From: a virus
Strand: one strand, 5' to 3'
DNA: 31,832 nucleotides
Virus record (IMG/VR): IMGVR_UViG_3300046167_000345
Span: 1 to 31,832 of that record
Made by a program: the position numbers and the translations under genes. Below are positions 3,148 through 25,415 of this stretch, one piece after another (within the stretch, counting starts at the first letter, position 1; every line of letters begins with the position of its first letter). The notes beneath the pieces are model-generated. The model was given only the letters and a program-made list of their open reading frames with translations. It ran no database searches and was not told where the DNA came from.

Positions 3148-4353
3148 TTATTCTACATTTTCAATTTGTTCTTCCACTTTTTCTTTGACTTCCTCTTGTA
3201 TATCCTTTTTAACGCCTGTTTCTTTCTCTACCTCTGCCTCACTAATAGCATTAGTCAAGTCGGTAAATTCAAGGGGCTGTAACGTCTTAAAATAGATATC
3301 AAGCTCTATTCCGTTGTAGTCAAGTATTTTCTCAAGTTCGTCAAGTATAGTAACCTGCATTGGTCTGATTACGGTGTTATCCATAAGCACAGATGCGGTC
3401 TGTAATTCTTCTGCATTGTTACCTAGTCCAGACGTATCTTTAATACCTACAAGCATAGGTGATACAATACGGTGTGATACCATAACCTTACGCATACTTT
3501 CATCTGATAAGAATTGATATTGCTGGTGGGCATCTGATAACTGTACTGGCTCAATGGTTGCTGCAAGCTCCTTGCTATCGTTAAACGCTAGTATGAATCT
3601 ACCTGCATTAGAACTACCGCTAAACTTATTCATTATACTAGTCTCAATAGCATCTCTTTGCTCTGCATCTGGAGTACCATTGTTAAAGTTAATAAGCATA
3701 CTTGGAGAAAGTCCGTTCTGAATATTGTTTATGTGATAGTTGGCAATCTCCTCTTCTAATTCCGCATACTGCAATCCTCCTTGATAATCTACTGGAGAAT
3801 AATACTTGTAACCAGCTCTATAAGGTTTTATGTATAGTATTTCGATTGCTGCGTTAGAGAATCCAAATGCAGGTATCTTTGTTAGCTTATCGCCAGACTT
3901 AGCCTCTGTCCAGTCAGAGTGATAGTAGTATGCCTCTATTTCGCCTTTAGAGTTGCATTTCTCGGCTCTTAACGTTTCTACTGGTATATGTGCTATCTGG
4001 GCAATTTTAGAGCGGTCTTTGGTGTATATAATTTGAAGTGCTGCCTGACCCATCATTTTATAATCGTGCGTTATGCGCTTAATGACGTTCTTGTTAAAAA
4101 GCTCCTTCATTTCTTTATAGTCAGCTTCTTTTTCTTTACTATCCGTAGCATCAAGACCTCTTCCATAAATCATTTCAGATATGCCATTGATAGCAGCGTT
4201 GTTCGTAGGGCTTCCATTGTATCTATCTATTAGATAGTTAAAGTAATCATTATCGTCTCCGTAAGATACCCAATCCTCGTTATAGTATTCCTTTACCTCT
4301 GGTTTAGAGTAAGAGCCTAACTGTACAATATGTATTGTGCTTTCGTCTTTCAT
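3148..4353 (-). CDS. Portal protein
   Basis: A 401-residue protein with a classic portal layout. An N-terminal region includes YNGSPTNNAAINGISEMIYG (about residues 45-64), then a mixed alpha/beta core with GFSNAAIEILYIKPYRAGYKYY, and near residue 300 the conserved-looking VSHRIVSPMLVGIKDTSGLG. The C-terminal 30 residues are a highly charged Glu/Lys tail. Portals form the dodecameric ring at one capsid vertex through which terminase pumps DNA. The start overlaps the 135-aa gene by ATGA and the stop sits next to the connector gene. It is unusual that the portal lies downstream of the major capsid gene and about 17 kb from the terminase instead of beside it. Confidence 0.85.
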   Translation of the reverse strand: MKDESTIHIVQLGSYSKPEVKEYYNEDWVSYGDDNDYFNYLIDRYNGSPTNNAAINGISEMIYGRGLDATDSKEKEADYKEMKELFNKNVIKRITHDYKMMGQAALQIIYTKDRSKIAQIAHIPVETLRAEKCNSKGEIEAYYYHSDWTEAKSGDKLTKIPAFGFSNAAIEILYIKPYRAGYKYYSPVDYQGGLQYAELEEEIANYHINNIQNGLSPSMLINFNNGTPDAEQRDAIETSIMNKFSGSSNAGRFILAFNDSKELAATIEPVQLSDAHQQYQFLSDESMRKVMVSHRIVSPMLVGIKDTSGLGNNAEELQTASVLMDNTVIRPMQVTILDELEKILDYNGIELDIYFKTLQPLEFTDLTNAISEAEVEKETGVKKDIQEEVKEKVEEQIENVE

Positions 4354-7080: not shown

Positions 7081-7221
7081 TCAGGCACTTATTTTTCCTA
7101 TCCCCTGACTTCTAAGAGTGCCATCACAGCATCTCCTAGCATAAGTCTTTCCGTTCTTGCATAAACAACCTCTCTTTGAGTTTGTCGGCACTTGTTGTCC
7201 TACCGTTTCTTTACTTTTCAT
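7081..7221 (-). CDS. Small cysteine-rich protein, 46 aa
   Basis: Starts MKSKETVGQQVPTNSKRG and continues with a compact motif GCLCKNGKTYARRCCDGTLR, then SQGIGKI. The two Cys pairs (C19, C21, C31, C32) could bind a metal or form disulfides. I recall near-identical short proteins (GCLC...CCDG...QGIG) in other Bacteroidota phage structural clusters, so this is likely a real gene of unknown role. Its ATG overlaps the protease stop by ATGA, and the scaffold gene follows, which places it inside the head-assembly block. Confidence 0.75.
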   Translation of the reverse strand: MKSKETVGQQVPTNSKRGCLCKNGKTYARRCCDGTLRSQGIGKISA

Positions 7222-9059
7222 TTCTTACTTGATTTAGGGTGTTTCTTTGGCAATAAGTCGTAGTCAGTAGTATATTTAGCGTTTTGCGGTCTACCGTTCT
7301 TTAAAAGGTATATATAGGCGTTTACTCTAGCTTGCGCCCATTGTTCTGCTGACTTTACATTAGGACTGTGAGATGTCTGGAAAGCACCAACTCCTCGCTG
7401 ATACACAGACTTCAGTTGTCCAACAGTAGTTCCATATCCCTTTTTAGATTTATACTTCTCGTTAAAGTCATTAGCTTTCTTCTGTAACGACTTTAGCACT
7501 CTGTCGGGTACAGTAACTCCCCTTGACTTCCCAGCAGCACCCTTTGGATTGCGATTGCTTCCTCGTTTTGGATTAGGATTTGGAGTATCGGAATTTGGAG
7601 CTTTCTTGCTTCGTTTAATTCTTCCCTTGTCATCATATTCAGCTAATTTATGTTCTTTGCAAGGCATATACCAATCCTTACCCTCAACATTATGTATGTG
7701 AAAACCCTCGCACCCAATATCTTCTGCGATTCTTAACGCTTCTTCTTTTGTATCGTATGCAAGCCTACCGTCTATTTCTTTAGAGGATAAATCAAGTTTA
7801 GATTCGTTTGCGTTAATTTCATCTAGCTTACCTTCTGCCCAGCGAATACCCTCTTCGCCTCCCCAAGCATCCCAAAGCAATCCTCCACAACCTTTGTTGT
7901 ATGGCTCGCCCTTTTTCTTCTCAAATCTATTGTAAGATGCCATTTCTGATATAAGACATCTTGATAGTGGTTTGCCAGCAGAAATTAGTTGGGCAAATTG
8001 CCAAGCCTGTGGTGTTCCGCATCTCGGTTTATTGCTGTCATAGTATGCTAGAGCCCTTTTAGCGTTCTTTTTAGCTGCATCTGGGTAGTCAGAGTATGTT
8101 TTGTCGTATAAACCTAATTCAAGCTCTTCAGACAGCTCTGTGCAGTCGCAGGATAGGTTTAACTCACCTAACTCCCTTAACTTACCTCTACTCCAAGCTA
8201 AACCAGCCTTACCGCCCCATAATAGGTATGAAATTGTGCCACAAGCCTTAGAATCGCCTGCATCATAGTATGTTTCAGCTCTTGATAGGTAGGAATACAT
8301 CCTCTTAATCGTTGACACACTTAGTTTTTCACCTCTACTGAGCTGCTGGGCTCTTATTTTCCCCACAGAGGTGGCGCAACGGTTATTTACCTTTTTGTTT
8401 AGCTCAATACCTCTCTTGGCATTATTTCTAACGCCACTTCCGTAGTCTCCGTATGTCTTTAGGTTTAGTTTTCCAGCTTCAATGCTATCGGCAATCTCCA
8501 AAAGTATTTCAGCAGCATCATTCTCTTTCTGAATCATTGACATAGCAACCTTATCAGTAAAGTAACCCTCTATTGAGAACCCTTTTACCCTGCCTGTCTT
8601 AACGTAGTCCTTCCAAACTTCTTCATTGTTTACTTTCATTGACACCATCCAAGTACCAACAGGCATCTTTAGTCCGTACTTACGAGATTTGTCGTACTGC
8701 TCATCTTCTATTATCCAAGACTCCACAACCGACATTCCTGATAGCTGTGCCTGATGCTCAAGAGTTGACCTGTTTTGGTTCCCCTTCATTAGGAACAGTT
8801 CAGATGCTCTTCTTACCGTATCTTCAGAGAAGTATATATAATACTCATCCTCTTTGTCTCTCCTGTATATTTTCTTATTAGGTATAAGTGCAGCACCCAT
8901 AAGAATACGCTTATCCTTATCAACGTCAGCAAGCTCAACTTTTATTTCTTCTTTTAGAGCTACAAAGTTTTCTTCTATTGCAGGTTGTTCTACAATTGAT
9001 ATGGCATCAATGCCAGAGAACTCCCCCTCTTCGTCTATAAATAATTCTATTACCTTCAT
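7218..9059 (-). CDS. XkdF-like prohead protease fused to a duplicated cysteine-bearing domain and a DUF5824-like C-terminus
   Basis: A 613-residue modular protein. Residues 1-190 look like the XkdF/PBSX-type prohead serine protease: IEQPAIEENFVAL-like start, H102 in STLEHQ, VESWIIED near 112-119 and GFSIEGYF near 160-167, where S162 is the likely nucleophile. Residues 202-298 and 318-413 are two divergent copies of one domain (NAKRGIELNKK / NAKRALAYYDS, then ...CGT... and LLWGGKAGLAW / LLWDAWGGEEG). Residues 431-470 hold a small TKEEALRIAEDIGCEGFHIH...YMPCKEH motif. A basic linker leads to residues 510-605, DUF5824-like (RGVTVPDRVLKSLQKKA, RGVGAFQTSHSPNVKSAEQW). The protease would mature scaffold and capsid. 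The roles of the extra modules are unknown. The protein is about three times the length of a plain protease. Confidence 0.75.
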   Translation of the reverse strand: MKVIELFIDEEGEFSGIDAISIVEQPAIEENFVALKEEIKVELADVDKDKRILMGAALIPNKKIYRRDKEDEYYIYFSEDTVRRASELFLMKGNQNRSTLEHQAQLSGMSVVESWIIEDEQYDKSRKYGLKMPVGTWMVSMKVNNEEVWKDYVKTGRVKGFSIEGYFTDKVAMSMIQKENDAAEILLEIADSIEAGKLNLKTYGDYGSGVRNNAKRGIELNKKVNNRCATSVGKIRAQQLSRGEKLSVSTIKRMYSYLSRAETYYDAGDSKACGTISYLLWGGKAGLAWSRGKLRELGELNLSCDCTELSEELELGLYDKTYSDYPDAAKKNAKRALAYYDSNKPRCGTPQAWQFAQLISAGKPLSRCLISEMASYNRFEKKKGEPYNKGCGGLLWDAWGGEEGIRWAEGKLDEINANESKLDLSSKEIDGRLAYDTKEEALRIAEDIGCEGFHIHNVEGKDWYMPCKEHKLAEYDDKGRIKRSKKAPNSDTPNPNPKRGSNRNPKGAAGKSRGVTVPDRVLKSLQKKANDFNEKYKSKKGYGTTVGQLKSVYQRGVGAFQTSHSPNVKSAEQWAQARVNAYIYLLKNGRPQNAKYTTDYDLLPKKHPKSSKK

Positions 9060-9068
9060 ACTATTGAA

Positions 9069-11342
9069 TTAACCGAATGATGCGGTATTTGTTATATTTC
9101 TATCTAATTCTTGTTGTGTTGAAATGTCTTTTCCTACTACAAATGCTTTTACTGGTTTTGCTTGTTGCTCAGCAACGGTCTCTGCTAATTGCGATGTTTG
9201 AGATGCGCCAACTACATTAAAGTCTGGTGCTTGTATTACATTTCCACCACCAAGTCCACCAGAAGCAGGTTCTTTTCCGGGGATTTTAACAGCCATTATG
9301 TCTTTCACTTGCTTTAAACCCATTGCAAGTGTAGCTGCTGCTTGCGCTATATTCCAAGGTCCATAAGGTTTAGCACCAAGTGCAGAAGTAAACGCCTCTT
9401 TAGTGTTCATTATAGCCATTGCAATAGAAGCAGCTTTACCAACAGTAGAACCTTCTCCAGCAACAGCTACAATAGCGTTTCCAACCTGATTTGCTATTCC
9501 TATTTTTGCATCTTTTTCCGCTTCCGCTAACGCTATTTTCGCTTCCGAGTTTGATGCTTCTGCATTTAATATTTGCTGGTCTATTTCAAGTGTACTCTGA
9601 CCTTCTGCAATTCTAGCATCTCTTATACTATTAAGATTAGCCATTTCACTACTAAACCTGTTTGCTTCAATTTCTTTAGCAACCCCTACTCTGTCTATCT
9701 CAGAGTCTGTGTATGATGACAAAAAGGATTCTTGAGCTGCAAGCCTATCTTCATTTCCTTTCTGAAGTGCCTTACCAAATCCAGCTAAATCCTGTAACTC
9801 TTCTTCTTCAAGAAACCTGTTAATAATGTTGTCATAAGAGTCTCCTATCCTTATAGCTGCATTTGAAAACGACTCCGCACTTTGTTGCATAGCTTGTGCG
9901 GTTTTGGCAATAGCGTCTTGTTTTGCTCTCTCAAACTCTATTGTTATTGTTTTCTTTTCAGCCTCACTTTTTGCCTGTTCTAATTTAGAATCCTTTTGTA
10001 ATTGCAGGTCTTTTATATAGTCATCCCTTCTCTGCTTCTCTTTCTCAACAAACTTTTGTTGTTGTATATCTAATTCATCTAAAGCAAGCTGTTTTTGTAG
10101 TTCTAATTTTTCAAATGCAGTTAACTGCTCATCTTTTAGGTCTTTTTTTCTAGCTTTCTCAATGAATTTGTCATAATCAGTTCTAGCTGACCTCAAGTTC
10201 CTAAACCTTACTTTAGCTTTACCGCCACCGCCACCTCCAGGACCTGCGTCATCCTGAATATCGGTAAACTTAATGAGCTTGTTTATATATTCTCTTTGCT
10301 CTTTTATTTTCTCTGCATTGAAGTTCTTATCTTGTTCAAGGGCTTTTTTGAATTGCTCGTATTTTTTCTTGGCTTTTTTAGCTACCGCAGAATCTTCTCC
10401 ATATTCCTCAACCTCCCTTAAATGCGCTCTTTCTAACGTTTGAACCCTAAGTGTATCTGTTTTAAACTTCTCTGCATTATCAAACTGATACATTTCTTCC
10501 TCAATCTTGAGGTCTATAATTTTACCAGCAGCCTCGTCAATCTTAATTTGGGCTTGCCTAGCAATAGCTTGCTTTATTATTGATTCCCTATAAGCATCAG
10601 TCATCTTTACAGCCTCTTCAGTACCTTTAGATAAATCTCCTAAAGTTAAGCCTGCATCATTTAATTGTTTTACATAATTAGGAAATTCTTTATTCAAAGC
10701 CTTTACAGCATCGTTCTGTTCCTCTTGAGACTTTGTAGAGTCTTGGAGAGTCTTTGTGTATGTTTCAAAAGAACCTGCGCTATCTGTTACAGTTTTAGAA
10801 GCTCCCTTAAACGCATCTTGAAGCTCTGTTGTAAAGCCTAAAAGCCTCTTAAAGAAAGCGAATATTTGAGGTCCGAAAGATATTAGCAACTGGATTGCAA
10901 TTAAGAATCCCCCAGAGCCTATCAATGATTTTCCTAATTCTTTAAATGATTGTGTTACGCCATCATTTGTTTTCACAAACGAACTAAACAATGTTACAAC
11001 CTGCGACAAGTTGTTTGCTATCGCCGTAAAACCATAACTAGCATCAGAAGCTAAACGACCTGTTTCAAGTAAGATCGCGTTGTTAAGACCAGACTGTGTC
11101 CTACCCTGCTTAATTCCTTTAGCCATATCAACAGCAGACTTCGCTGCCAGATTGTTAGCTAACTTCTGGTCGTTTGTTGCTGCGGTTAATTTAGCATACT
11201 CTCTTCCAGCTTCGCTTAACTCAAAATTAAGAGCTTCTTGTGCCTTCTGAACTTTAGTTAACGACTGAGCAACTCCATCAGCACTTTTTTTAGCCTGCTT
11301 ATCGTTAATATTTATCGATATGAGTATCTTTTGTTCAGCCAT
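9069..11342 (-). CDS. Tail tape measure protein
   Basis: A 757-residue protein, the longest in the window. It has helical, Ala/Lys/Gln-rich segments, a hydrophobic stretch at about 144-164 (GGFLIAIQLLISFGPQIFAF), a Gly-rich hinge (PGGGGGG, near 370) followed by long charged coiled coil, and a C-terminal hydrophobic Ala-rich part (GKAASIAMAIMNTKEAFTSA ... IAQAAATLAMGLKQVKDIMA). The segment ETGRLASDASYGFTAIANNL is one I associate with Bacteroidota phage tape measures. The protein sets tail length and enters the host envelope during DNA delivery. Its start overlaps the preceding 53-aa gene by 8 bases. Confidence 0.85.
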   Translation of the reverse strand: MAEQKILISININDKQAKKSADGVAQSLTKVQKAQEALNFELSEAGREYAKLTAATNDQKLANNLAAKSAVDMAKGIKQGRTQSGLNNAILLETGRLASDASYGFTAIANNLSQVVTLFSSFVKTNDGVTQSFKELGKSLIGSGGFLIAIQLLISFGPQIFAFFKRLLGFTTELQDAFKGASKTVTDSAGSFETYTKTLQDSTKSQEEQNDAVKALNKEFPNYVKQLNDAGLTLGDLSKGTEEAVKMTDAYRESIIKQAIARQAQIKIDEAAGKIIDLKIEEEMYQFDNAEKFKTDTLRVQTLERAHLREVEEYGEDSAVAKKAKKKYEQFKKALEQDKNFNAEKIKEQREYINKLIKFTDIQDDAGPGGGGGGKAKVRFRNLRSARTDYDKFIEKARKKDLKDEQLTAFEKLELQKQLALDELDIQQQKFVEKEKQRRDDYIKDLQLQKDSKLEQAKSEAEKKTITIEFERAKQDAIAKTAQAMQQSAESFSNAAIRIGDSYDNIINRFLEEEELQDLAGFGKALQKGNEDRLAAQESFLSSYTDSEIDRVGVAKEIEANRFSSEMANLNSIRDARIAEGQSTLEIDQQILNAEASNSEAKIALAEAEKDAKIGIANQVGNAIVAVAGEGSTVGKAASIAMAIMNTKEAFTSALGAKPYGPWNIAQAAATLAMGLKQVKDIMAVKIPGKEPASGGLGGGNVIQAPDFNVVGASQTSQLAETVAEQQAKPVKAFVVGKDISTQQELDRNITNTASFG

Positions 11343-14866: not shown

Positions 14867-15424
14867 TTATTTTGTCTTTAAAACGTATGTGTCTCCCTGT
14901 TTTGTATAGCCGACACTTTTTAGTATTTCTTCTAATTTATCTTTAACATCCTTTTTGAGTGGTGCGTTCATTCCATCTAGTATCTCTTCAAAGCCTCTTT
15001 CTACAACTTCTTTTATATAGTTCGTTGGTGCGATACCTCTTAGCGATATAGCCTCCCCTATTTTGTAGGCAACGCTTTTTAAGTTAGATGGTGTTCTGTC
15101 TAGCTCTCTGCCTGTGCTGAAGTCCCTAAGTGTAACTGGCTTTGTTTGCAACCAGTTTATTATAGCTTCTGGTGGAGGTGAGAATGGTGATGTTCCTTCG
15201 TCAACAGCCTGCAAGTAGGAGTTGCCATATAGGTTTATGTCAAGACCGTTATTTTCTACCCTTACATTCAAAGACTCGCCACCTGCACCACTAGAGCGAA
15301 CCTGAGAACTTCCCCCGAATCCCCTTGTTCTTGTGGTTTCATAGGACTCAAGGAAATACTGAACAAGTTTGCTTTCGGCAAATTGCTTTATATAGTCCTC
15401 TGTATTTTTGAATCTAATCTCCAT
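14867..15424 (-). CDS. HK97 gp10-like neck/tail protein (putative)
   Basis: A 185-residue protein with a conserved-looking segment GNSYLQAVDEGTSPFSPPPEAI (about 68-88) and APTNYIKEVVERGFEEILDG near 130-150. The order of a short helix, a beta hairpin and a Pro-rich loop with EGT resembles the HK97 gp10 / minor neck family, which joins the head connector to the tail tube. The next gene upstream looks like a tail completion protein, giving the usual gp10-completion pair, although here the pair follows the tail chaperone. Confidence is moderate because the family is short and divergent. Confidence 0.55.
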   Translation of the reverse strand: MEIRFKNTEDYIKQFAESKLVQYFLESYETTRTRGFGGSSQVRSSGAGGESLNVRVENNGLDINLYGNSYLQAVDEGTSPFSPPPEAIINWLQTKPVTLRDFSTGRELDRTPSNLKSVAYKIGEAISLRGIAPTNYIKEVVERGFEEILDGMNAPLKKDVKDKLEEILKSVGYTKQGDTYVLKTK

Positions 15425-15918
15425 TACCTACAACCGTCTCCTGTTGAATTTATAATTTGCATATTTGAATTGGGTATCTCAATAGACAAGTCTAATGCCC
15501 AACCAGATAATAAGTTCTCAAATCTATCTTCAAATAATGTGGCAGTTGCATCAGAGGTTAATACGTAATCTTCATCGTTTAGCCCACCTCTTCTTAGTGA
15601 GCTTTGCAATCCGTTTATTACCGTAAGCTGTGTGTTTAGTACGTCTGCCCTGTTGTCCAATCCTTTGTATGGAACTGAGGCTGGGTCTAGCTTATCATCC
15701 TTAGAGGCATCTACTATATCCATACATATTACTTGAATAGAGAAATTCATTGTATGCTCTGAGAACGTGACGTTTTGTATGTTAACGTGCGACAATGGAA
15801 ACAGCGTTTGCTTGGCTAAGTCTACGTCAAAGATATTGCCAAAGGTTACTGTGTTTACACTTGGACTACCGTTTAGGTATCTGTAAATCTTGTCCATTAA
15901 ATTATAAAACTCTTTCAT
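15424..15918 (-). CDS. Tail completion/terminator-like protein (putative)
   Basis: A 164-residue protein with VTFGNIFDVDLAKQTLFPLS and FSIQVICMDIVDASKD. The pattern FG-x-I-x-D-V-D-x-x-K-Q-T-x-F-P-L-S-H is one I remember from a conserved Bacteroidota phage tail protein of about this size next to the gp10-like gene. Such small alpha/beta proteins cap the tail tube. Its ATG overlaps the stop of the -1 frame of the upstream tail chaperone by ATGA, which shows that the frameshifted reading continues right up to this gene. Confidence 0.55.
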   Translation of the reverse strand: MKEFYNLMDKIYRYLNGSPSVNTVTFGNIFDVDLAKQTLFPLSHVNIQNVTFSEHTMNFSIQVICMDIVDASKDDKLDPASVPYKGLDNRADVLNTQLTVINGLQSSLRRGGLNDEDYVLTSDATATLFEDRFENLLSGWALDLSIEIPNSNMQIINSTGDGCR

Positions 15919-16178
15919 CGCTTATATGCTTTTTTTATCATCGCTGCTTCTATTTCGTTTTTCTCTTTCTCAAAGGTTAGGAAGTTGAGGCACTTGAATA
16001 CTGGAAGCTCGGTAACTTTATCAAACTTGAGAACGTCTCCTCCAGCGAGTCCGTATATTGATTGGTACCAACCCCATTTTGAGCCAAAGTTTGCTTGAGC
16101 TGATAAGTCTGTTCCTCCGTCAGATTGTTCTGTATATAGCTCGGGATAGCTCTCAACAACTCCTTCCCTAAATCGTAA
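15915..16178 (-). CDS. -1 frame extension of the tail assembly chaperone (gpT-like part of a G-T fusion)
   Basis: If the ribosome slips back one base on the nine-T run at 16185-16177, translation continues in a second frame that is open for 87 codons to TGA 15917-15915. The new C-terminus starts LRFREGVVES and contains FGSKWGWYQSIYGLAGGDVL, then KCLNFLTFEKEKNEIEAAMI. I recognise the KWGWYQSIY...LPVFKCL...KEKNEIEA pattern from Bacteroidota phage tail genes. There is no ATG in this frame before residue 80, so it can only be made by frameshifting. It overlaps the zero-frame product for about 200 bases and fills the 58-base gap to the next gene. The full fusion would be 257 residues. Confidence 0.8.
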   Translation of the reverse strand, partial: LRFREGVVESYPELYTEQSDGGTDLSAQANFGSKWGWYQSIYGLAGGDVLKFDKVTELPVFKCLNFLTFEKEKNEIEAAMIKKAYKR

Positions 16179-16687
16179 AAAAAAACCATAGCACTCATAA
16201 CAACATCTAGTGGCATCTCTTTCATTAAATTAGAGACCTCTTCGCTGGGTTCGTATGGTGCTACGGTGTACTTGTCTTTGTTCTTGAAATTGACTGGTCT
16301 GTAAAGCCCTGCCATAGCTTTGTGCATTCTTTGCCAGTCTGATATATTATCCTCAACATCTATATATGCCCCAAGAGATATATTCTCTAGCTTTGGTTCA
16401 AATCCCATATCGACACCAAGCAAATCAAACCTAGTTATTAAGTTCGGCTTCTCTTCAAATGCCTTGTTGATTATAGTTAATACCTTATCGGCATCTTTAG
16501 CAGGAATGCTTAAAACATCCTTTAGTGAGATGTTACAAAATATCTCAATGGTCTTTAGCGTTAAGAACTCTCCTGCATTATCATCTCCCTCGTTCTCCTC
16601 GACTACTTTCATATATCGCTGATATTGCCCAAGCGTAATGTCTGATAAGGCGGTTGGAACTGATAATTCTAATTCTATGGTTTTCAT
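15977..16687 (-). CDS. Tail assembly chaperone, zero-frame product (gpG-like)
   Basis: A 236-residue protein starting MKTIELELSVPTALSDITLG. The first 170 residues are shared with the frameshifted product; the last 66 (from YDLGKELLRAIPSYIQNNLT) are specific to the normal frame and end FQYSSASTS. Length and placement at the head of the tail cluster fit the gpG/gpGT pair known from lambda and many siphoviruses, where two forms in a fixed ratio coat the tape measure before the tube polymerises. Here the tape measure is five genes downstream instead of adjacent. No host-type promoter lies upstream, only the AT-rich palindrome region. Confidence 0.75.
   Translation of the reverse strand: MKTIELELSVPTALSDITLGQYQRYMKVVEENEGDDNAGEFLTLKTIEIFCNISLKDVLSIPAKDADKVLTIINKAFEEKPNLITRFDLLGVDMGFEPKLENISLGAYIDVEDNISDWQRMHKAMAGLYRPVNFKNKDKYTVAPYEPSEEVSNLMKEMPLDVVMSAMVFFYDLGKELLRAIPSYIQNNLTEEQTYQLKQTLAQNGVGTNQYTDSLEETFSSLIKLPSFQYSSASTS
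16177..16185 (-). promoter_or_regulatory. Programmed -1 ribosomal frameshift slippery site
   Basis: Nine consecutive T on the minus strand, read in the zero frame as GTT TTT TTT TAC. The heptamer T TTT TTT allows both tRNAs to re-pair fully after a one-base backward slip. The -1 frame is open from here to 15915. I did not identify a clear downstream pseudoknot by eye. Confidence 0.75.
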
Positions 16688-21445: not shown

Positions 21446-21537
21446 AAAGAATAATATGGACAATTATATGTGTAGCAACAGTAATTATATGGTATGGAAT
21501 ATACCTTATTTTTAACGCAATACGTACATTCCTTTAG
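21442..21537 (+). CDS. Small membrane peptide, 31 aa
   Basis: MKRIIWTIICVATVIIWYGI then YLIFNAIRTFL: two basic residues followed by one transmembrane helix. ATGA overlap with the 40-aa gene. Its last 26 bases overlap the end of the terminase large subunit gene on the other strand, so transcription converges here and no terminator is seen between them. Confidence 0.55.
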   Translation: MKRIIWTIICVATVIIWYGIYLIFNAIRTFL

Positions 21538-22729
21538 GCACAGTACGCTCAAGGGCGTATTGAATTGCATATCTCGAGGCATCGATGCTGTGATTCCAAG
21601 AATCTCTTGGTATACTACCCTTTAACTTCCAAGCATAATTGTTAAACTCTCGTATTAAATTCACAGAGTCCTTATCAACTATTATGTTGTAGTCTTGCAT
21701 AAGTGCAATCCCAGATAATATACTACCCTTCTTTTTAATAGTAGGCGTAATGTTCCTAAGACCTTTAGTCTTTAGCTCCGATATAAGTCGAGGTTCACTA
21801 TTGTCGCATACTATTAGGTTGTTGCCAGCATATCTCCTGCAAAGCTCAAATATATTAGATGTAGACAAGCCAGCCTTGTAGAAGTGTTCTTTTATCCAGA
21901 TAGTCTTTCTAACTTTATCTACGGCAATTTCGCACAAACTTGAGGGATCTACCGAAAATCCGAAATCAAGTCCAAATATCGTATCATACTCATTATTAAA
22001 GTCTCCAACCTCCCAATGAGTAAATACAACTCCTTCTGCTTTCTCAAGCCAACCTCCTAATATCTGGTGCTTATACTTCTCTGGTCTACGCTTTTGCATA
22101 ACCTCAACTTGCTCTACAAATGACGGAGACAAGTGTTGCTTGTTGTCAAGGTAAGTTGTGTGTATATAGCTGACGTTCTCTTTAACGCCATTGTAACCGT
22201 CTGTAATGCCTCTATTCTCAAAGAACCTCTCGTATATCCAATGCTGTTTAGTTGTGGGGTTTAAGATAAGGATACAGCGATTCTGCTTTCCTGTGGCTCG
22301 AACAGAGTAATCTATCTTTTCAAACGATTCCTCGTCTGTAAGTTCCTCTGCTTCATCCAAGACAAATGTCGTAACGCCTTGAATAGACTTGAGTTTGGCT
22401 GTCTGGTCTCCACTCGCAGTCTTGATACCACTAAACAGAATGCTGCTCCCTGTTAGGTTATTTATAATCTCGTTCTTTGTAACGGTAAAGTTTTCTGCAA
22501 TACCCATCAGTTCAAGCTTCTCCAAGAACTCTGGTATAATAGACATAGATGCCGAAGTCATTGTATATCGAGTAAACAGTATACGGTGTCCAGTTTCGTA
22601 AGTAAGCAATACTAAGAATGTGTTTACACCAAAAGACTTACCACTTCCCCTACCACCTGTAATTACAAAGTACCTACTCGGGTCTCTGAACAGAGGATTG
22701 TACTTAGGGTTAAGATTTACTTTCCTCAT
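21512..22729 (-). CDS. terL: Terminase large subunit
   Basis: A 405-residue packaging motor of the PBSX/Terminase_3 type. Walker A is GGRGSGKS at residues 25-32; Walker B is FVLDEAEE with D125-E126; the coupling motif is LNPTT at 156-160. The C-terminal RNase H-like nuclease has D255 in GLDFGFSVDP, D309 in IVCDNSEP and D383 in NHSIDASRYAI. All key residues are present and the length is normal. It packages and cuts phage DNA at the portal. It overlaps the small subunit gene by 20 bases and its 3-prime end overlaps the convergent plus-strand membrane peptide. Confidence 0.95.
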   Translation of the reverse strand: MRKVNLNPKYNPLFRDPSRYFVITGGRGSGKSFGVNTFLVLLTYETGHRILFTRYTMTSASMSIIPEFLEKLELMGIAENFTVTKNEIINNLTGSSILFSGIKTASGDQTAKLKSIQGVTTFVLDEAEELTDEESFEKIDYSVRATGKQNRCILILNPTTKQHWIYERFFENRGITDGYNGVKENVSYIHTTYLDNKQHLSPSFVEQVEVMQKRRPEKYKHQILGGWLEKAEGVVFTHWEVGDFNNEYDTIFGLDFGFSVDPSSLCEIAVDKVRKTIWIKEHFYKAGLSTSNIFELCRRYAGNNLIVCDNSEPRLISELKTKGLRNITPTIKKKGSILSGIALMQDYNIIVDKDSVNLIREFNNYAWKLKGSIPRDSWNHSIDASRYAIQYALERTVPKGMYVLR

Positions 22730-25386: not shown

Positions 25387-25415
25387 AAAAAAAAAGAGGC
25401 TACCGAAGCAGCCTC
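25387..25415 (-). terminator. Intrinsic terminator after the replication operon
   Basis: Minus strand GAGGCT, 8-base loop with TTCG, AGCCTC, then nine T. The stem is perfect. It ends the replication/sigma operon and insulates the promoter at 25379. Confidence 0.9.

Follow-up and report, generated by a model that had tools for sequence, protein, structure and literature searches.

How does a phage gene come to be read in two frames, and is the DNA that lies open in both of them coding twice? Tail chaperone frameshifting is the textbook case of ribosomal recoding. We asked these questions of a candidate tail-assembly gene from a marine Bacteroidota phage that has not been cultivated; the gene changes frame where nine T's stand in a row. 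It lies in a 31,832-nt stretch of DNA (the window; positions 1 to 31,832 of IMG/VR record IMGVR_UViG_3300046167_000345). Our reading, to which we assign a probability of roughly 0.55, is that it encodes a lambda G/GT-type tail assembly chaperone, with a minority fusion product made by slippage, most likely of the ribosome, at this run.

Two reading frames meet at a run of nine T's

The site lies on the minus strand, where the codons GTT TTT TTT TAC, correct to the base as the initial annotation gave them, occupy positions 16186-16175 (first GTT, 16186-16184). The run of nine T's (T9; 16177..16185), at which the frame changes, holds the heptamer T TTT TTT (16184-16178) in the zero-frame register. 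The sequence GGTTTTTTTTTACG occurs once in the window and in none of 100 shuffles, and T9 is the sole nine-base A/T run within any gene of the window. The window has a second nine-base A/T run, at 25387-25395, which is intergenic.

The zero-frame ORF (15977..16687, minus strand) encodes 236 residues, with an N-terminal putative chaperone domain followed by a tail of 66 sense codons beyond the two Phe codons of the site (example tail peptide, AIPSYIQNNLTEEQTYQLK). The -1 frame (15918..16178, minus strand) is open for 87 codons, from TTA (16178-16176) to CGA (15920-15918), and encodes the second domain of the fusion, KWGWYQSIY...FEKEK; at the junction, VFF is followed by LRFR. Its stop codon, TGA (15917-15915), overlaps the ATG of the next gene (15918-15916) as ATGA (15915..15918, minus strand). 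The overlap read in both frames (15980..16177, minus strand) covers the 66 zero-frame codons, about 200 bases, over which the zero frame is free of stops and its residue-level signal is weak. The -1 frame offers no ATG, GTG or TTG until an ATG that lies 80 codons past the shift, and an independent start of this ORF in the window is ruled out because no usable start codon is available. The extents of both frames, the ATGA overlap and the lack of an ATG before residue 80, all previously noted from the letters of the DNA, hold in full, and the last extends to GTG and TTG.

The frame relation is conserved in all relatives

A first scan of IMG/VR with the zero-frame protein as query returned 177 relatives, 80 of which were analyzed; the protein is homologous over its full length in IMG/VR contigs. 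All 80 carry the T TTT TTT heptamer at the equivalent codon, and all except one have a -1 frame that stays open for 84-91 codons. The exception (L045, around 3467-3580) carries one nonsense codon within the KWGWY motif of an otherwise intact -1 frame, and it is either a dead copy or an assembly error; it is the only relative in which a stop breaks the -1 frame. Searching again with a fusion profile, and adding three metagenome-assembled Bacteroidota contigs and a pair of cultured Nonlabens phages, enlarged the set to 164 relatives. The C-terminal domain lies in the -1 frame in 164/164 and is fused in one frame in 0.

Deeper scans brought the set to 183 distinct sequences, which form 57 clusters below 70% identity. 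All 183 keep the -1 relation and none is fused in a single frame. The run comprises nine T's in 166 relatives and ten in 17, never seven or eight, and none has a run of another length that would join the frames outright. Runs of nine or ten occur in three registers, and an X XXY YYZ heptamer in the zero-frame register, T TTT TTT inside T9 or T10, is present in 183/183. The two Phe codons of the site are always TTT and never the synonymous TTC, and the codon before them always ends in T; codon usage alone would keep such site codons in only ~0.19 of lineages each. Conservation of the -1 relation, the run and both open frames is apparent from these comparisons. Flavobacterium phage 6H, considered as an outgroup, was set aside; it gave a weak fold match, and no long T run was seen near its own candidate gene.

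The -1 domain is under purifying selection

No part of the fusion is better conserved than the -1 domain, with its motif FF[LF]xF...KWGWYQS[IV]Y...FEKEK. Substitution patterns clearly indicate purifying selection on this domain, with omega of 0.32 in the near clade and 0.52 in the far clade in OLGenie-like counts (bootstrap P(≥1) of 0.000 and 0.003, respectively), and they bear out the initial description of the segment as conserved-looking. When the zero-frame protein was fixed and its codons were resampled, the -1 frame stayed open in 0-2% of trials per lineage. With the two parts of the fusion folded apart, AlphaFold gave the -1 domain alone a pLDDT of only 67.

Architecture and position point to a probable tail assembly chaperone

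The gene most likely encodes a chaperone for tail assembly similar in type to lambda G/GT, an assignment that is well founded in architecture and position, if short of proof. The zero-frame protein matches PHROG 32199 (E=6e-24), a PHROG of unknown function, with weak matches to PHROG 166 'tail protein' in 5/50 members; sequence searches of the PDB, Pfam and NCBIfam returned no family of named function. A fold search of the PDB with the zero-frame model gave no match. In BFVD the model matched many uncharacterized tailed-phage proteins and, weakly, one annotated tail assembly chaperone (prob 0.90, E 0.13). The chaperone label proposed at the outset thus draws on where the gene lies, on its architecture and on one weak match in structure, but not on a sequence family of known function.

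The surrounding genes lie on the same strand. The next gene (15424..15918, minus strand; 164 aa; PHROG 30964, unknown function) is, from its position, a probable tail completion or terminator gene. The candidate chaperone gene is downstream of that for the terminase large subunit (21512..22729, minus strand; PF04466, E=3e-34) and upstream of probable tail, protease, capsid and portal genes. A 757-aa protein (9069..11342, minus strand) without a named family is the probable tape measure by its length, its A/K/E/Q/L-rich composition and one TM-like window. Its gene is five genes downstream of the candidate chaperone gene and not adjacent to it; we count this distance, together with the lack of a PDB or named-family relative, against the chaperone reading.

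The gene order is unusual in its own right. Across positions 1053-22729, the terminase, tail, protease, probable scaffold, capsid and portal genes follow on one strand, with the consequence that the head genes except the terminase come after the tail genes. The protease (7218-9059) is a 613-aa XkdF-like (S78) protein with a DUF5824 match and a long C-terminal extension, which contains two related ~80-residue segments with conserved Ala, Lys, Trp and Cys positions.

Ribosome or RNA polymerase at the run

In the account that we favor, most translation would stay in the zero frame and yield the 236-aa protein, composed of a chaperone domain of ~170 aa and the 66-aa tail. A minority of reading events would shift to -1 at T9 and yield a 257-aa fusion with the KWGWY...FEKEK domain, which presumably recruits the tail tube protein. 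We infer the chaperone function, the ratio of the products and the molecular step. By analogy with studied systems, tandem slippage of two tRNA-Phe on U_UUU_UUU is the single step that we consider most likely, by a modest preference. Such -1 ribosomal frameshifting is widely conserved among tail chaperones (PMC5009743), and it was measured at 6-7% in an HK97-like tail chaperone (PMC3711429).

Two features of the site count against the ribosomal account. RNAalifold on 35 aligned sites predicted no pairs, so the usual ribosomal stimulator, a conserved RNA structure 3' of the site, appears to be missing; a conserved stem or pseudoknot past the site was accordingly rejected, as single-sequence folds were not consistently stronger there than in the rest of the gene. 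Ribosomal slippage requires seven T's, and the length of the run appears to be conserved beyond those seven.

Because the run seems locked in length, shifting its register yet staying at nine or more, insertion by RNA polymerase is a serious rival. The polymerase would add one U on T9, the resulting ten-U mRNA would be read normally into the -1 frame, and run length would set the product ratio, as in Shigella mxiE. One inserted U gives a protein identical to the -1 ribosomal slippage product. Of the programmed -1 ribosomal frameshift in the initial annotation, it is therefore the conserved -1 transition giving a fusion that stands, with the ribosomal step as one of two candidates. On nine A or T, slippage by bacterial RNA polymerase is efficient (PMC5009743), and in many bacterial genomes selection against such runs becomes visible at this length (PMC1088944). 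The restriction of the run to nine or ten T's in 183/183 relatives argues for this rival, as does the fact that it neither needs an RNA structure nor is one found. Closure of the +1 frame within two codons, seen in 137/164 relatives, also speaks in its favor.

Further evidence for the polymerase comes from sites at which the run has moved. One relative (L177; GGT TTT TTT TTG) is without the 5' T and has one extra on the 3' side; a clade of three (L201/L224/L250; TTT TTT TTT CTG) is without the 3' T and has one extra on the 5' side; both keep nine. By a hand estimate from how often such extensions occur among the 57 clusters, the joint chance of this register compensation is ~0.005; common descent with T10 relatives makes the true value larger. 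The compensation rests on these two lineages, however, one of which is a single locus and the other part of a clade in which T10 already occurs. Moreover, the flanking T's are largely explicable by amino acids, with a hydrophobic residue (V/L/I/F; NTT) before the site and a -1-frame Leu or Phe (TTN) after it.

Long runs are otherwise avoided in these phages. In genes of the related loci, whose phages are AT-rich, A runs occur at 0.97 (A6), 0.74 (A7), 0.57 (A8) and 0.20 (A≥9) of the synonymous-shuffle expectation; A runs alone were used, as the T≥9 shuffle counts were probably contaminated by chaperone ORFs slipping past the filter. Such avoidance would suit a polymerase that slips on long runs, but replication slippage would also produce it.

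Because the tail chaperones studied so far rely on ribosomal shifting, we place the ribosomal step somewhat ahead; polymerase insertion is a credible contender that falls a little short of even odds. Both kinds of slippage may act on the same run. We regard as speculative, and would sooner expect to see fail, the bolder proposal that the whole Bacteroidota phage clade relies on polymerase slippage at a length-locked T9 or T10, in place of ribosomal frameshifting, to set its tail-chaperone ratio, with ~50-80 codons of the unslipped transcript under selection as a second reading. We found no report in the open-access literature of transcriptional slippage in a tail chaperone or of a frameshift in the family of the window phage.

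The zero-frame tail is kept open

In the clade of the window phage, the zero frame runs on for 46-81 codons after the site before it stops, which would lengthen the short product. We counted stops in the first 50 zero-frame codons of 30 lineages that share less than 62% identity. These codons contain 1 stop, against ~73 expected if the -1 protein is held constant, and the +1 control frame shows no such deficit (154 stops against ~163 expected). The near absence of stops and the lack of a deficit in the control show that the openness of the zero frame is selected. When codons were resampled under a fixed -1 protein, 18/19 test lineages retained a zero frame of the observed length in 0.2-8% of trials; the exception is L075, at 40%.

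The residues themselves tell less. Zero-frame residue similarity is above the null, but the +1 control is likewise in excess past codon 17, and over codons 18-64 the zero frame rises above the null by a margin scarcely larger than that of the control. We therefore dropped the idea of strong residue-level selection over the whole tail and limited the claim to openness and the first part. Over the first 17 codons, zero-frame similarity is higher than in the control (z of 11.9 versus 9.7 in 30 lineages and 8.1 versus 4.6 in 8 lineages). Constraint at -1-synonymous sites is also uneven, with a divergence (dNS) of 0.13 in the first half of the overlap and 0.43 in the second half in the near clade. 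AlphaFold, given 50 sequences of the zero-frame protein, assigned a pLDDT mostly of 82-96 to residues 11-170 and of 70-78 to residues 171-200, where the helix continues, and below 50 beyond residue 205.

From these comparisons, residue-level selection on the zero frame appears weak beyond the first ~17-34 codons. The first ~17-34 tail residues probably matter as a helix and the remainder mainly by not stopping. The initial proposal that about 200 bases code in two frames is thus supported for the -1 frame and for the openness of the zero frame, and only weakly for zero-frame residues.

Alternatively, the tail may be functionless as protein, with the -1 frame as the sole real coding sequence in the overlap and openness serving to keep unshifted ribosomes moving, which would avoid premature termination or lost coupling to the next gene. 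The small margin of codons 18-64 over the control, the low pLDDT after residue 205 and the Nonlabens-clade phages, which stop after 15-25 codons, are all compatible with this explanation. The near absence of stops, the low dNS in the first half of the overlap and the excess in the first 17 codons argue against it, and we consider it possible but rather doubtful. In the sister Nonlabens-like clade the T9 site is shared but the zero frame runs only 15-25 codons past it, so the long overlap is lineage-specific. Our results suggest that the long overlap belongs to the larger clade, is in part functional as protein and is dispensable for the frame change as such.

The frame arrangement is neither chance nor sequencing error. 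It is more than chance because it combines the sole in-gene nine-base A/T run of the window with recurrence in 183 distinct relatives. Homopolymers are prone to sequencing error, but a misread run in a genome whose frames are really joined is ruled out, to near certainty, by the same run and frame relation in these 183 sequences from many assemblies, including two cultured phages sequenced separately.

Comparison with known recoding systems

The closest functional parallel is lambda gpG/gpGT, which likewise pairs a short zero-frame product with a -1 fusion carrying a second domain, in a tail gene cluster and with a second frame that has no start codon. Unlike lambda, the window gene has a pure T9 run kept in every relative, and the two have no detectable sequence homology. 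A conserved tail frameshift of dsDNA phages was reportedly described by Xu, Hendrix and Duda in 2004. The distance from site to stop averages 26 nt in the annotated SEA-PHAGES cases (PMC10885494), in contrast to the ~200-nt overlap of the window gene. As had been remarked from the sequence, the overlap is much longer than the tail of lambda gpT, but this length is confined to one lineage. A prediction tool that expects the stop shortly after the site would be prone to overlook such fusions.

Shigella mxiE and Thermus dnaX resemble the window gene in their run of nine and in the choice of product by a base change at the run, where an insertion yields the frame needed here. They are not phage tail genes, and slippage was shown there by RNA analysis; for the window gene it is proposed from the DNA.

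Among the relatives found, only the Nonlabens (Persicivirga) phages P12024L and P12024S (Inhavirus) are in culture. Both of their domains are homologous to those of the window gene (34-35% identity), their site, CTT TTT TTT TAT, also has nine T's, and P12024L shares the gene order of the window. They differ in that their zero frame ends ~25 codons past the site, on TAATG. In P12024L (JQ823123; L082, 5558-6252), this TAATG joins the zero-frame stop to an overlapping ATG of the -1 frame, and reinitiation there could be a further source of the second domain in the Nonlabens phages. GenBank lists P12024L_40 and _41 as two hypothetical proteins with no frameshift annotated, an annotation that misses the fusion.

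Frameshifted tail chaperones are already known as a kind; the long overlap and the universal T9 or T10 set the clade of the window phage apart. This clade has no recognized stimulator, its run never departs from nine or ten T's, and its long overlap is selected; it offers a natural test of whether RNA polymerase can take over from the ribosome at a step known from lambda and its like.
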